The translations under genes were made by a program, and so were the position numbers. Under the pieces are notes generated by a model that saw only the letters and a list, made by a program, of their open reading frames with translations, had not been told where the DNA came from and searched no databases. 64,000 nt of DNA from contig NZ_QJSM01000020.1 of the NCBI RefSeq assembly GCF_003205235.1, positions 62,001 through 126,000 of the forward strand. Direction: 5' to 3'. Shown here one piece after another: positions 50,576 to 62,002 of the stretch. Position 1 is the stretch's first letter. Every line of letters starts with the position of its first letter. This DNA comes from Thermoplasma sp. Kam2015 (GTDB lineage: Archaea; Thermoplasmatota; Thermoplasmata; Thermoplasmatales; Thermoplasmataceae).

Positions 50576-50744
50576 TTTTACTTACATCGTCAAAATGCAT
50601 ATAAAACTTAAGATCTAAATCTCTTATTTAATCCTAACACCTCAACTTTCTAAAATATAATCCCCATTAGCATTCTAATGATGATTATTTTACCAATTTC
50701 GATAACAGACATTATCAATTCTCCGTTGATAGATACCAATGATA

Positions 50745-51860
50745 CTAGTAGGACGTCCTTAAGAGGCAATCCTCCATCTTGAACCTGTGCTTGAAAAGCC
50801 ACGACGGTATAGATAAGTACTGTTCTGTCTTGTCTGATATCTTTTCGACATCCGGATCGTCAAGGGATAGGGAGACCCCCTTCCTGTACTTCCTCACTAA
50901 ATTAAGGAATGATCGTGTTATTGTATCTTCACAGTAGAGACTGTTGAGTTTATACATCACGATCTGGACGATCTTCTCACTCTTTCCATATGGGAGTTCC
51001 CTAATGGATTCCGAGTCATTTCCCAACCTGTGGAGGTTCTCTCCATCCTGGTAGAGCATGAACTTGATCAGTTTCTTGGCCATATCAAGTTCGTTCTCTC
51101 TACCTGAATCCTTTACCCTGTGCAAGCTCCTTTTCTATGTGGAAGAGACCTCCCTGTCCCCATATACGTATGCCGAGATATGTTAAACTTACCCAGAACA
51201 GAAGAGTTGTGGTATCCTTCCATTGTTATGTATGTTTCTCCGTTAACATTGAATATTTCCAGCGATCGGACAAAGAAATCGATCAATTTTTTCTGAGAGA
51301 TAGGCAAGGATCGATGCAACAGAGCTTCGTTTATGAATCCCCCAGCAGTGCCCTATATTTATTAATGCTGTCAATAATCATGTACTGTTCGCCATATGCA
51401 GAGTAACCTAACAAATACATAACGACATCCTGTACTGGAAGCATATACTTCCCAATAGTCTCATGCGGTATCATCATATTTCCAAGTATGCGGAATAGAT
51501 CCATCGCTTCTCTTAGGGGTCTTTATCCTCGACTTGACGCCCTTCTCCTCCGCATCGTCTTGGCAATGCTTCCTGGAGCCGTAGATCGGGGAACGAGCAA
51601 CAAGAGAATACCTGCAGTTCCTGCAGATATACATCTGCTCAGTGAAAAGAGATCCGTTCTTCATAGTCCTTAAACACGTACCGTTACTCATGAACCTATG
51701 AGATAGTTTTCCTTCAGTTCCAGATACATTATGGATTTGTTATTGAACATAAAAACTGGAGATGAACATATGGATGAGAAGTCATCGGGTGATGTTGAAA
51801 CTCTCCTGAACTCAGTATATGGCGCTTTCCACAATCGCATGTAAAGAAATGGTTCCATCA
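50745..51860 (-). mobile_element. Degenerate transposase with N-terminal zinc-ribbon motif
   Basis: On the minus strand broken frames together spell one protein: a CDCGKR-type and YICRNCRYSLVARSP zinc-ribbon start, KGVKSRIKTP, then the frame-shifted QDVVMYLLGYSAYGEQYM, INKYRALLGDS, NVNGETYITMEGYHNSS and RIWGQGGLFHIEKELA, and a C-terminal half (ELDMAKKLIKFMLYQDGENL, DDPDVEKISDKTEQY, SWLFKHRFKMEDCLLRTSY). I take it as a Thermoplasmatales transposase of uncertain IS family. Four or more frameshifts make it inactive. Confidence 0.55.
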
Positions 51861-52184
51861 TATTTCATGCTTTCAGTCTTGTGTTATGAATTACGAAGAA
51901 ATCGGCTGATTTTTTACAATGCCGTTTATCCCATCGTAATGCGACGACGATTCCTTTAGCTGAATGCGGATTATACAGGAAAGATAATTTATATGAGATT
52001 TATTAATTTATGATAATATATTATTACTTGAAGATAAAGAAGTATTCATTTTCAAAGTAGAGTATTGTAATCGTAGTTACGAATTGCCATAAGAATAGAC
52101 ATGAAATTCCAGTTTCTGCAGAGTCTTCTCGCATCTTTATCATCTTTCATGTCAATTCATGATAGGAGATATTTCGTATGGTGA
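51861..52184. other. Spacer, nothing recognised
   Basis: About 320 bp, AT-rich, leading into the repeat array. No frame, hairpin or RNA gene stands out. Confidence 0.4.
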
Positions 52185-52527
52185 TACAATACCTACAATA
52201 CCAACATGGTATCAATGGAATTATGAATTCCTTACGTATTTTACAGAATTTCAGGCATAGGATAGGATTTCAGTGATCATTTGGTATTGTTACATAGTAT
52301 TGTAAAGCTACAATACCATTAAAATCTCGTATTTTATGGGCTTTTCTATAAATCTATATGTAGGGGTATTGTATGAATTTATAATTGGTATTGTATAGGT
52401 TAATTTTTGTATTGTATAATTAAACAATTCAATCTAATGCATGCGATCTTTTTGTCCAACTGTCTATCTCTTAGGATTCGCCCCATATGGTATTGCATTA
52501 TGGTATGTAAAATATATTATCAATACC
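52185..52527. repeat. Iteron-like array of the 9-mer GGTATTGTA
   Basis: Five exact copies: TACAATACC at 52185-52193, 52194-52202 (directly adjoining) and 52309-52317; GGTATTGTA at 52365-52373 and 52387-52395. One-mismatch copies lie at 52283-52291, 52296-52304, 52408-52416 and 52489-52497, and a weaker one at 52519-52527. Copies 52296 and 52309 form an inverted pair around AAGC. They end just before the promoter of the HTH gene at 52562, so they look like operator sites or replication iterons. I saw no copies elsewhere in the window by eye. Confidence 0.75.
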
Positions 52528-52531
52528 ATAA

Positions 52532-52545
52532 TATTAATATATAAT
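52532..52545 (+). promoter_or_regulatory. TATA-like box of the HTH/coiled-coil gene
   Basis: TATTAATATATAAT is centred about 24 bases before the ATG at 52562, directly after the last repeat copy; a protein bound there could block TBP/TFB. Confidence 0.6.
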
Positions 52546-52561
52546 GATGCATTGACTGTTT

Positions 52562-53089
52562 ATGAGCAAAAAAGATGGCGAAATAGTCTATCTGATCAGA
52601 GCAGGCTATTCGCCTACAACTATAAGGAAGAAGACCGGAACCAGCATAAGGCACATCGAGGTAGTCTATAGAAGTATAAAGGATGATCTTGATCCGGAGC
52701 TCTGTGACGCATACGATTATAAATTCGCAGAGCTGAAGGAGAAGAACTACGATCATGTCAATGATGCTAAGGAGAGGCAAAGCCAGTTAAGGGATCCGGA
52801 CATAATGAGACAGGAGCAGGAAAAGAAGATAACCAGCGCCCAGCAGGCAATCGGCGTCTCAAAGGAGATAATGCAGGACTGGGAGGAGCGCCTTCGTGCC
52901 GCAAAGAAGATGAAGGAATGGAACGATAAGTACGGCTTCCTGATCAAGGGCTTGGCCTTCAAGGACTTTGAAGATATGATAGAGCATCTGATGCCACTGC
53001 TTGTTGGATTATACAAGAATTCAACCGCAAGCGTATTCGATGAAGTTCTCGATATAGCTGCCGCCCGCAAACTGGCCGATCTTTTATGA
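52562..53089 (+). CDS. Orphan HTH/coiled-coil protein
   Basis: A 175-residue protein I cannot assign to a family. Residues 6-40 look like a helix-turn-helix (VYLIRAGYSPTTIRKKTGTS then IRHIEVVYRSI), similar in layout to small resolvase- or sigma-type HTHs. Residues 45-125 are highly charged and helical, probably a coiled coil that dimerises it. The last 50 residues (FEDMIEHLMPLLVGLYK, then DIAAARKLADLL) are amphipathic helices. Its codon use is richer in G+C than the flanking debris, so it seems maintained. The iteron-like array directly upstream suggests autoregulation or a plasmid-type replication/partition role. Confidence 0.7.
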   Translation: MSKKDGEIVYLIRAGYSPTTIRKKTGTSIRHIEVVYRSIKDDLDPELCDAYDYKFAELKEKNYDHVNDAKERQSQLRDPDIMRQEQEKKITSAQQAIGVSKEIMQDWEERLRAAKKMKEWNDKYGFLIKGLAFKDFEDMIEHLMPLLVGLYKNSTASVFDEVLDIAAARKLADLL

Positions 53090-53365: not shown

Positions 53366-53640
53366 CTCTCCTATTCATGAGACTGATACTAAGCCTGATG
53401 CGACAAAGATGTTGATCGATAAAGTAATATAATCCCAACAAACGATACGAATTCAAGAATAAACAGCATACGCTTAAAAACATCATGTTTGAGAATGTAA
53501 GGGGATTGGGAAAATACATATCAGGAAAGGTAAAAGAACTTAAGTTCAAGATATCGGACATTGTAATCAAGGAACGATGATATGGAGATGAGACTATTTC
53601 GATCAGTTTCAGCTGGCAGAAAGGATGAGGAAAGCAAATT
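53366..53640 (+). pseudogene. Heavily decayed C-terminal fragment of a cas1-like gene
   Basis: This DNA aligns with 56960-57190 in the other cas1 copy. Matching peptides in several frames are KPDATKMLIDKV, NKQHTLKNIMFENVRGLGKY and ISGKVKELKFKISDIVI, against KPNTAKLLIEKI, NKQHLLENIMFENVRELSRY and ILGKVKELEFRIPDIAM there. Stops and shifts are frequent. Only the helical C-terminal half is left; the catalytic residues are gone. Confidence 0.65.
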
Positions 53641-53749
53641 AACGTCGAATATGAATAGAAAAATTTTTTTAGGACAGAATGATAGATCCTTTAAGGAAAG
53701 CAAGGATAGAAATGAATAAAATTGATTATGAGGAAGAGTATATATATAT

Positions 53750-55644: not shown

Positions 55645-56505
55645 AGTGTTATGAATTTTGTCTAAATCTCTGGAACAAAAGAAGTAAATCTCTTGAACCG
55701 AAGAGACACGAATGAATATGGAAAGGTGGATGAGAAAACGACTGTTAAAAGGCTGTGAATGGATATCTGGAAACATTGATGAAAACAGAGAGGAATGTGT
55801 TCATAGATGAGTATGAAAGAACAAAGAATGGATTCTATTACAAAAAAATAAAAACTGAGTTTGGAGAGATAGAAAATCAATCAGTACCAAGAAATATGGG
55901 AGGTAATTTCAGAACTGGAATATTTGATCTTTATTCTCTTCAACACATATATGGATAATTAGGTTAACCATATAACCTTATTAATTATCCATTCTAAGGG
56001 AATATCTACAAGGAAAGCTTAAGAAATAAATTGATAATAATCTGATACAATATTCCAGAACAGATATAGATCATCCATCTCAAGAATAATAAATGCCACT
56101 ATAGAGGAAGTTAATAGATTACATTCAAGATACCTTGATTATAGATACATAGGAATATTCCTTGATGCATTAATTTCCTTTATTCTTCTTCCACGTAAAG
56201 GATACTGTGCAGAAGGAGTCAATAATATTTAACATGGGAATTAAAGAATACCATCTCTCATATACAGAAGTTGTAAAAGACCTATACGGTAGGGATATAA
56301 GAAAGCCTTTGCAGTTCATAATAGATGGTATCCCAAAACTTGATGAGAATATAATAAAGATATTCCAAGAGCTGATTTTCAATTATGCACGGTACATGCA
56401 TCAAGGAACTTTGAATCAGATGTTAGTAAATATGATAAATAAACGATAGATGAACATTTCAAGAGATTCATAAATTAGAATTCAAATTCCTATGGAATAA
56501 TAAAT
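55645..56505 (+). mobile_element. Second degenerate IS256-family copy, 3' truncated
   Basis: The first part (TTATGAATTTTGTCTAAA and onwards) and the encoded KNGFYYKKIKTEFGEIENQS, then PRNMGGNFRTGIFDLYS, match the remnant at 44125. Later pieces KEYHLSYTEVVKDLYGRD and GIPKLDENIIKIFQEL also match. Sequence related to the transposase stops near 56505, where the cas1 fragment begins, so one element interrupted or replaced the other. Confidence 0.75.
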
Positions 56506-56530
56506 ACTCTCGACTGATTATAACATCTAT

Positions 56531-57308
56531 ATGAACAGGAGAAACAAAAAAATTCAGAGAGTTAATTATGACAACATAACCACTCTAATGATATATGAAG
56601 GGTGCATTGCATCGGCTTACTGGTCTGAATTATCTAAAATATTCAATTCGTTGGCCAAGGTTTTTCATTTTGAAACAAGGAAAAACTTATCATATTTGTG
56701 GAACATGAATGCATCCGATCCAGTAAATGCCTTGCTGAACTACGGCTATGCAATACTTGAATCAATAATAAGGAAAGATATCAACACGATAGGTCTTGAC
56801 ATATACATAGGATGTCTGCATGAAACGGCACCGTCCAGCATCCGCCTATTTACGATTTACAGGAACTGTTCAGGTATGTTGTTGATTATTCAGTCATCGA
56901 AGTACTGGAAACAGGATTGAAGAAATCGGATTTCATAACAACCGAGGATTACCATATCAGATTGAAGCCAAATACAGCAAAGCTATTGATTGAGAAAATT
57001 AAGAACAACTTCAACAAGCGTTATGAGTTTAGTAATAAACAGCATTTATTAGAGAACATCATGTTTGAGAATGTCAGGGAATTGAGCAGATACATATTAG
57101 GAAAGGTCAAAGAGCTTGAGTTCAGGATACCTGACATTGCGATGTCAAGGAATGATGACATTGAAATGAGGAATATGGTCATGTCAATTGATCCTGATAA
57201 AAGGAAAGAGTTGAAGATAAACAAATCTACATTGTGGTATGAACAGAAAAAGATTAAAAGGGAAAGACCATAAAGATGTATGGAAAAACAAAGGTGAAGA
57301 TTGAATGA
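56531..57308 (+). pseudogene. cas1: cas1-like integrase gene: N-terminus missing, two frameshifts
   Basis: The sequence is a clear Cas1 catalytic domain. It shows YEGCIASAYW (the active-site Glu at 56597), FHFETRKNLSYLWNMNASDP, VNALLNYGYAILESIIRKD, and GLDIYIGCLHE (the His at 56819). The reading then shifts by one base near 56830 to PPIYDLQELFRYVVDYSVIE, whose Asp (56854-56856) completes the Glu/His/Asp triad. The second frame continues through KPNTAKLLIEKIKNNFNKRY to KINKSTLWYEQKKIK. A second shift near 57258 restores KGKTIKMYGKTKVKIE and a stop at 57308. The N-terminal beta domain (about 130 residues) is absent; IS256 debris takes its place. No cas2, cas4 or repeats lie nearby. Confidence 0.8.
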
Positions 57309-59805: not shown

Positions 59806-59839
59806 GTGAGCTACTCCTAAGTTAAAGCATCGGAGCTTC
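59806..59839 (-). mobile_element. Right-end motif of the solo TnpB element (omega RNA 3' part)
   Basis: Read on the minus strand it starts inside the last tnpB codons with GAAGCTCCGATG and ends with CTTAGGAGTAGCTCAC after the stop. CTCC and GGAG can pair. Similar strings at 9143-9175 and 61093-61123 mark other right ends. In IS605/IS1341 elements the omega RNA scaffold ends here and the guide comes from the flanking DNA. Confidence 0.55.
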
Positions 59840-61036
59840 CTTTCGTCGAAGAGACCTCTGCCTTTCCGGACATCCGTACAAGCCCGATGTTGCGATCTCC
59901 ATAGGCGTGAATTCGGATCGCACCGATCCTACTCTTATCAATCCTATTTTCCTTATGTTCTTTGATGCGTTGTGATCCCTGTCTATGATGAGACCACATA
60001 CATCACAATGATATATGCGATCTGATAACTTCAGATCATGCTTTATGTTACCGCATGATGAACATATCTTAGATGATGGATCGAATCTTCCTATCCCTAT
60101 TATATTCTTTCCATATTTTTCTGCTTTCCATTCCAGTCTCTGCTTGAAGGAATAGAAAGAAACATCGTTCAGACTCTTCGATATATGATGGTTCTGCATC
60201 ATTCCTTTTACGTTCAGATCTTCGATGATGATGGTATCGTACTGCTTGGCTATCGCAGTCGATATTTTATCATCGAAGTCCTCACGCATGTTTCTCAGCT
60301 TCATGTACTCTTTCTGTAATTTAAGTATATGCTTCCTTCTATTCTTCGATCCATTCTGCTTTCTCGATAGCTGCTTCTGGAGTTTCTTTATCCTTTTCTC
60401 TAGCTTCTTTATGAATCCTGGATTCTCTATTGCTATACCGGGGGAAAGAGTTGCAAATTTCTCGATGCCTAGATCTATGCCAACGGAGTTCTCTGCAGAT
60501 AATGGCTTCTTCTCTGGTAGTTCCTCTGGTATCTCATATATTATGGAGCAGTAGTAATAACCTGAATCCTTGGTTATTACTATCTCGTTGATGTCTTTAA
60601 TCTCGGACAGCTTCTTCTCAGAGCCCTTGAAGTATATGCCTTCTGAGAACTTTGGGAAATATATTCTGTTTCCTTGAATTTTGATGTGCTGTGGTACTGC
60701 AAAGTATTCGTTGATACCTTTCTTTTTGAATTTAGGATGTTCAGTATTCTTATGGAAGAAGTTCTTGAATGCATTGTCTAAGAAACGTAGGGACATCTGT
60801 AAGGATTGTGAGTTTATTTCATACAGCCATGGATATTCCTTCTTGAGTTCGATGAGCATGTTCTGTGTGTCCAGATAGCTCAATGAAGATTTCTCCGCAT
60901 CCCTATGCGTTATATAGTATTCATCCCTCTTCGCTAAGAAGTAATTGTATACGAATCTACAGCTGCCAAAGTGCTTCTCCAGTAAAATTTTCTGTCTTTC
61001 ATTTGGATACAGCTTCACTTTGGCAGCCGTTATCAT
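59822..61036 (-). CDS. tnpB: TnpB RNA-guided nuclease of a solo IS605/IS1341-type element
   Basis: A 404-residue full-length TnpB. The RuvC residues are D188 (VGIDLGIEKFATL), E272 (IIIEDLNVKGM) and D354 (IDRDHNASKNI); the zinc finger is C325-C328 and C344-C347 (CSSCGN, CDVCG). The N-terminal wedge part (KVKLYPNERQKILLEKHFGS) is typical. No tnpA lies nearby, so transposition would need one elsewhere. TATAAATAAT lies 26 bases before the ATG. All catalytic and metal residues are intact, so this is the only apparently functional mobile-element protein in the window. TnpB cuts DNA at sites next to a short TAM, guided by omega RNA. Confidence 0.93.
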   Translation of the reverse strand: MITAAKVKLYPNERQKILLEKHFGSCRFVYNYFLAKRDEYYITHRDAEKSSLSYLDTQNMLIELKKEYPWLYEINSQSLQMSLRFLDNAFKNFFHKNTEHPKFKKKGINEYFAVPQHIKIQGNRIYFPKFSEGIYFKGSEKKLSEIKDINEIVITKDSGYYYCSIIYEIPEELPEKKPLSAENSVGIDLGIEKFATLSPGIAIENPGFIKKLEKRIKKLQKQLSRKQNGSKNRRKHILKLQKEYMKLRNMREDFDDKISTAIAKQYDTIIIEDLNVKGMMQNHHISKSLNDVSFYSFKQRLEWKAEKYGKNIIGIGRFDPSSKICSSCGNIKHDLKLSDRIYHCDVCGLIIDRDHNASKNIRKIGLIRVGSVRSEFTPMEIATSGLYGCPERQRSLRRKEAPML

Positions 61037-61302: not shown

Positions 61303-61587
61303 ATGGTTAAAAGCAAGATAACAGTATCTGTAGATAAATCGGTGATCGAAAATGCAAAGTTAGCCCTGTTGAAAAAACGGAGGACACTTAGCGATTACAT
61401 AGAAAAATCACTTCGATCACTTTCAACATCAGAGATCATTACTGATCTATGCGAGGAGCTTGACATTGATTGCGAATACATCACCGGAGAGAATGTTGAG
61501 AGGAACAGACCTGATCTTACTGGCAAGGCCTTGGCAGAAAATGAAATAAAGGAGATGAGGGGTGAACGTGCCTCGCATCTATCTTGA
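61303..61587 (+). CDS. vapB: VapB-like antitoxin (DUF6364-type ribbon-helix-helix)
   Basis: A 94-residue protein. KITVSVDKSVIENAKLALLKKR then TLSDYIEKSLRSL is a ribbon-helix-helix of the DUF6364 kind; the acidic tail after residue 50 is the likely toxin-binding part. Its last 26 bases overlap the toxin gene. It would neutralise the PIN-domain ribonuclease and repress the operon through the palindrome at 61287-61298. Confidence 0.82.
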   Translation: MVKSKITVSVDKSVIENAKLALLKKRRTLSDYIEKSLRSLSTSEIITDLCEELDIDCEYITGENVERNRPDLTGKALAENEIKEMRGERASHLS

Positions 61588-62002
61588 TACCAGCATCTTG
61601 GTCAAGAGATATGTTAAGGAGGAAGGAAGCGCAATAGCTGATGAATATTTCCATCAAGCGGAAAGAGGAGAGTCGGTTATCTGCTTATCTGAAATCAATC
61701 TTGGTGAAGCGGCCGTTGTCTTCGATAAATACTCTAGGAAGATGGATATTGATGCGAGGAATCGCATGCAGGTTATGTTAAGCGAACTACGATCCCTTGA
61801 AAGATCCTCTTCAGTGGAAATATATCCCGTTGACAGTCATACCTTAAGAAAAGCAATCAAAATTGTTCTGGAATACCATATATATGTGGTGGATGCAATT
61901 CAACTTGAGACCTGTATTGAAGCGGGTGCAACGCTTTTCTGCTCTGGAGATACGGAACTCAATGCTATCGCCAGGAGAATCGGCATCGAGACCGTACCCT
62001 AA
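61562..62002 (+). CDS. vapC: VapC PIN-domain toxin ribonuclease
   Basis: A 146-residue PIN protein starting with GTG inside the antitoxin gene. The acidic metal site is visible: LDTSILVKRYV (first Asp), SEINLGEAAV (Glu), VVDAIQLETC (Asp) and CSGDTELNAIA (last Asp). VapC toxins cleave tRNA or rRNA when the antitoxin is degraded. Overlap with the antitoxin gene couples their synthesis. All key residues are present, so the pair may be active; it lies beside the solo tnpB, in the mobile part of the window. Confidence 0.9.
   Translation: MNVPRIYLDTSILVKRYVKEEGSAIADEYFHQAERGESVICLSEINLGEAAVVFDKYSRKMDIDARNRMQVMLSELRSLERSSSVEIYPVDSHTLRKAIKIVLEYHIYVVDAIQLETCIEAGATLFCSGDTELNAIARRIGIETVP

Follow-up and report, generated by a model that had tools for sequence, protein, structure and literature searches.

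An iterated array of 9-bp sites ending at the promoter of an ORFan gene for a predicted HTH protein in an archaeal surface-glycan island

The window analysed here, a stretch of 64 kb lying on a single contig (C20), corresponds from about 22 kb on to a low-GC surface-glycan island encoding glycosyltransferases, a flippase and sugar-nucleotide enzymes. Within this island, a gene for a 175-residue protein and an array of 9-bp sites in front of it sit between a decayed insertion sequence (IS) and a cas1 fragment (Table 1), in agreement with the debris that an earlier note on this DNA had reported around the gene. Since the 5' part of cas1 on one side matches the 3' fragment on the other, it seems that a single cas1 copy was split, its two parts now lying on either side of about 8.5 kb containing the gene and the array; a DUF2079 gene, a glycosyltransferase gene and the dead IS lie in the same interval. 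The 3' part of cas1 has a relative in a congener (G001), beside a restriction-modification-like gene, and another relative (G011) carries two copies of the decayed IS type that are 99.8% identical over 1268 bp. Further downstream are found an intact IS605 OrfB/TnpB-like gene with a Cas12f1-like TNB domain (59822-61036, minus strand) and two overlapping genes, for a DUF6364 small protein and then a PIN-domain protein (61303-62002), that look like a toxin-antitoxin pair.

Table 1. Positions in the window of the gene, its promoter, the 9-bp sites and the neighbouring remnants
Feature	Position	Strand	Basis or remark
cas1 5' part	44143-44923		matches the 3' fragment at 53391-53663
Decayed insertion sequence, 400-aa zinc-ribbon transposase	50724-51861	-	just upstream of array; open-frame relatives in family
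Outlying site AGTATTGTA	52061-52069	+	1 mismatch; 116 bp ahead of main array
Exact GGTATTGTA copies	52185, 52194, 52309	-	9-mer scan
Exact GGTATTGTA copies	52365, 52387	+	9-mer scan
One-mismatch GGTATTGTA copies	52283, 52296, 52408, 52489	+	9-mer scan
Adjoining exact pair without gap, TACAATACCTACAATACC read on the plus strand	52185-52202	-	9-bp register, shared with the RA3 kfrA operator repeats
Weak site GGTATCAAT	52208-52216	+	inverted relative to 52194; core ATACC-AACAT-GGTAT; GGTAT core count
Three sites in 13-bp steps: GGTATTGTT (+), AGTATTGTA (+), GGTATTGTA (-)	52283-52317	both	sequence scan
Three direct sites, 22 and 21 bp apart (two helical turns): two exact copies followed by TGTATTGTA	52365-52416	+	
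Site GGTATTGCA	52489-52497	+	weaker GGTATGTAA 13 bp further on (52502)
Promoter-proximal site GGTATTGAT	52519-52527	-	-43 to -35 of the gene
TATA box TTAATATATAA	52534-52544	+	-28 to -18; probable leaderless promoter
ORFan gene, 175 aa: N-terminal HTH (1-60), predicted long helices behind	52562-53089	+	codon usage, AlphaFold2
cas1 3' fragment	53391-53663		downstream of gene
Second cas1-like copy, contiguous, frame-broken	55646-57273		

The open reading frame was intact and coding in its own frame alone, with a coding score from codon statistics of 0.34 in this frame and of at most 0.05 in the other five. Its codon usage was of the chromosomal backbone type (GC 46.5%, GC3 58%), unlike that of the surrounding AT-rich island. 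An AlphaFold2 prediction run without an alignment returned a confident three-helix HTH with the start of a fourth helix over residues 1-60 (mean pLDDT of about 93 for residues 11-50); when the N-terminus was predicted alone, it folded alike. Helices were also predicted at residues 45-75 and 79-129, with pLDDT values that were mostly low, about 50-76 past residue 60. The best structural matches of the HTH reached only a Z of 4.9, tied among unrelated HTH proteins, and fold searches listed generic members of this class (SpoIIID, Lrp/AsnC, TrpR and a CRISPR-repeat-binding protein), all tied. No significant family match was obtained for the protein in Pfam, PHROGs or NCBIfam, and profile searches revealed no ATPase or Rep domain in it. 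Searches for homologues were negative in its own genome, in 117 genomes of the order, in 400 genomes of the class and in collections of viruses, phages and plasmids, as was a separate scan of genome contigs, which is sensitive to close relatives only; as far as these tools reach, the gene is an ORFan. With tblastn, relatives gave weak matches (E from 9e-4 to 0.06), which were rejected as homologues on those inspected: the three in question (family f4: L003, L004 and L006) corresponded to ScpA-like or charged-helix proteins encoded beside SMC genes, and aligned outside the HTH core. The well-preserved gene and the lack of a known family described in the earlier note were borne out, as was, by structure prediction, the HTH-like N-terminus. 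Homologues without such an array, which the note had named as evidence against its proposal, did not appear, since the searches returned no homologue of any kind.

In the regions upstream of 133 genes of this genome, TATA-like words were most frequent between -29 and -23 relative to the start codon, as expected for leaderless transcripts. The TATA box of the gene occupies this genome-typical position, immediately downstream of the proximal site at 52519-52527, which ends 34 bp ahead of the start codon and adjoins the place where TFB would contact the BRE.

Recounting of the 9-mer GGTATTGTA yielded five exact and four one-mismatch copies in both orientations within 313 bp (52185-52497), just as the earlier note had listed, including the directly adjoining pair (52185/52194) and the inverted pair, formed by AGTATTGTA at 52296 on the plus strand and GGTATTGTA at 52309 on the minus strand. 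To this list we added the outlying AGTATTGTA at 52061 and the proximal GGTATTGAT, which is included in an inverted repeat with 18-bp arms at 52497-52532 and abuts the BRE/TATA region, in line with the earlier claim that the array ends at the promoter of the gene; within the gene itself there were no sites with up to one mismatch. The core GTATTG was common to 11 of the 11 aligned sites. Their start-to-start spacings were 124, 9, 89, 13, 13, 56, 22, 21, 81 and 30 bp, so the spacing is locally regular (adjoining 9-bp, 13-bp and 21-22-bp steps) with no single register overall.

The density of these sites was compared with a background rate of 0.155 per kb at up to one mismatch, obtained from this genome's own noncoding-like DNA (51 kb). 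At this rate 0.049 copies were expected in the 313 bp, where nine were seen (Poisson P = 4e-18), a density about 190 times that of noncoding DNA; in the whole window, 30 matches with up to one mismatch were seen vs 12.7 ± 3.3 expected. The choice of the word after the fact was corrected for by counting every non-simple 9-mer in 372 kb of the genome, and only GGTATTGTA and its shifted versions occurred exactly, without overlap, at least four times in a span of 320 bp. Genome-wide (1.79 Mb) there were 29 exact copies of GGTATTGTA, five in the array and 24 single elsewhere, vs 31 copies of the reversed control word, indicating that the single copies occur at chance level. An equal density of the 9-mer elsewhere, which had been put forward as a reason to discard the array, was thus not observed.

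Proteins of this design were then sought in the literature, and the closest parallel that emerged was KfrA of the IncU plasmid RA3, a strong autorepressor with an N-terminal HTH and an alpha-helical tail. Its operator, at its own promoter, holds TGTATTGTA five times, in both orientations; repression needs at least two repeats, with flexible orientation, and the plasmid is stable only if KfrA binds (PMC7783346). Self-association through the tail and filament formation on the operator are further traits of KfrA. In the plasmid record this operator consists of three direct units, six bases and two inverted units. The unit TGTATTGTA differs from GGTATTGTA by one base and is identical to the site at 52408-52416, and adjoining 9-bp repeats are present in both the RA3 operator and the array (52185-52202). 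The two systems share iterated 9-nt sites at their own promoter in both orientations, and the 175-aa protein is likewise predicted to have an N-terminal HTH and, with low confidence, a helical tail behind it. On the other hand, they differ in protein length (175 aa vs about 355 aa in RA3 KfrA), in the span of the sites (about 340 bp with mostly irregular spacing vs about 51 bp) and in that the 175-aa gene has an archaeal TATA promoter and no adjacent partition genes, unlike RA3 kfrA. Given that an arbitrary 9-mer of the same composition has a chance of about 0.7% of lying within one mismatch of any rotation of TGTATTGTA, and with the caution that TATTGTA is itself an AT-rich word, the likeness of the operator words is suggestive, not conclusive.

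Sequence comparisons did not extend this parallel to kinship. The profile PF11740 (KfrA_N) gave no hmmscan match with the full-length protein up to E 5 or with its N-terminus up to E 10, nor did it match anywhere else in this genome, and hhalign against KfrA returned a probability of 1.2% with an alignment outside the HTH. The KfrA score of the protein was the fourth among 597 ORFs, with 0.0 bits in the HTH part; against shuffles the protein (P0001) ranked 5th of 2001, and ordinary ORFs of the genome score alike. In place of the KfrA motif P-T...R...GS, with a W after the recognition helix, the protein shows PTT--IRKKT-GTSIRHI, where PT, R and S are kept, the spacing is two residues shorter, GS is replaced by TS and the W is missing, so that the invariant GS and W residues of KfrA are both absent. 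The gene lies in a chromosomal glycan island rather than on a plasmid or phage, and no Pfam family of stability genes was detected among the neighbours scanned. Membership of KfrA is not supported, given the lack of a relationship in the four homology tests and the irregular spacing. As no test revealed a sequence relationship, we say that the protein would work like KfrA in architecture and is not one by sequence.

Inspection of the upstream regions of 13 further KfrA-like genes revealed TGTAT iterons of a related kind in the group from enterobacterial plasmids, not in distant members. In front of several genes from IncF plasmids and their enterobacterial relatives, TGTAT-type words are iterated in a way that resembles the array; these systems are bacterial, plasmid-borne and 9-bp phased, unlike the 175-aa gene. 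Other loci with at least three word sites in viral and genome contigs were set aside as coding repeats or unrelated spacer repeats, none of them encoding a KfrA_N protein. An intergenic array of GTATTGTA words in both orientations, much like the one studied here, occurs on a viral contig that is GC-rich and carries a terminase-like gene (IMGVR_UViG_3300027712_001326, L045:4048-4564); a search of this contig found no KfrA_N gene. A Bacteroidetes contig (L080:1-330) contains a dense intergenic block of alternating GGTATTGTT and GTTACAATACC repeats, again in both orientations.

For an HTH gene placed directly behind a site array that runs up to its promoter, the best reading is an autoregulator, to which we give a probability of roughly 0.6. 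The protein would use its helical tail to oligomerise on an iterated operator, the array probably being the landing pad for the gene's own protein in self-control. The gene would encode a small sequence-specific DNA-binding protein controlling its own synthesis, in which the N-terminal HTH would recognise GGTATTGTA through the invariant core and the helical tail would form a dimer or a larger oligomer, allowing several weak sites to be bound together. The sites would constitute an operator of about 340 bp that stops just short of the BRE/TATA element; at high levels of the protein the array would be filled, and the occupied proximal sites (52489-52527) would keep TBP/TFB off the promoter, resulting in autorepression. 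We infer all three of these elements, namely the encoded protein as binder of the sites, its oligomerisation, and repression over activation. The earlier note had left the choice between an autoregulatory operator and the origin of an integrated plasmid; the former is favoured by sites that stop at the promoter, a confidently predicted HTH and the parallel with RA3 KfrA and its nearly identical 9-mer, and the latter is not supported, as detailed below.

Irregular spacing counts against autoregulation, as do the many sites located 150-375 bp from the promoter, beyond the needs of simple repression, the poor and tied matches of the HTH, the low confidence of the modelled tail and the lack of relatives that would show joint inheritance of gene and array. 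A spread of sites this wide would suit a partition or DNA-organising role, and the locus might descend from an integrated plasmid or virus as the relict of its partition (centromere) or maintenance module, encoding a centromere-binding protein with autoregulation as a by-product, all the more so as KfrA combines these two roles and as the surrounding island contains a decayed IS and a split cas1. We consider this unlikely: Rep, ParA, ParB and integrase families were absent among the neighbouring ORFs scanned, no ParA-type ATPase of the ParABS or AspA type was present in the flanking ORFs scanned, the collections searched held no plasmid, phage or viral relative, and the codon usage of the gene is chromosomal. 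AspA, the centromere-binding archaeal HTH protein of the Sulfolobus plasmid pNOB8 (4rs8, 5k5q), gave a weak Foldseek match (E about 1), no better than those of dozens of unrelated HTH proteins, and the 175-aa gene has no ParA/ParB neighbours. Since neighbours of a partition or DNA-organising kind are lacking, the simpler reading as an autoregulator is preferred.

A host-encoded regulator other than the 175-aa protein, itself a putative binder, might instead occupy the array, with the orphan gene as no more than a target; this would accommodate the 24 single exact copies elsewhere. Nevertheless, those copies are near the control level, and no second cluster, not even paired direct exact copies, was found in this genome or in four congeners, which makes such a regulator quite improbable. 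Replication-origin iterons of an integrated plasmid would match the AT-rich, repeat-bearing intergenic DNA, and Thermoplasmatales plasmids do have AT-rich repeat origins beside orc1/cdc6 (PMC3177234), in pTA1 and pPO1 near a DNA-binding-protein gene, as here. The repeats of those two origins differ from the 9-mer (PMC3177234, Table 2), the Orc1/Cdc6 genes of this genome are located on contigs C21 and C18 and not on C20, and neither the protein nor the neighbours scanned revealed a Rep domain or family, so we judge an origin very improbable. Least credible of all is an array left behind by CRISPR DNA or by the end of a mobile element: a decayed IS lies immediately upstream and cas1 pieces downstream, but the transposase remnant ends at about 51861, the spacing is irregular and the units have only 9 bp. 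Subterminal repeats of an IS were also rejected, as the IS copies of five relatives, with their flanks, hold at most scattered single sites, and so was an RNA element, no Rfam match coming near a gathering score.

Genes for DNA-binding proteins that control themselves through iterated operators are familiar from bacterial plasmids and, to our knowledge, little known in Thermoplasmatales. The organism studied here is a heat-loving, acid-loving archaeon, and the gene occurred in no other genome searched. It is a speculative and rather doubtful prospect that the gene founds an archaeal family of small HTH-plus-helix proteins acting on an iterated operator or centromere, either independent of KfrA or diverged from it unrecognisably with the 9-bp word nearly kept. 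The near-identical operator words make a direct cross-binding comparison with RA3 possible. If the reading as an autoregulator is true, this small HTH protein and the large array of sites in front of its gene would represent a compact archaeal regulatory switch, and if the protein has a DNA-stabilising role as well, KfrA would have a counterpart in archaea.
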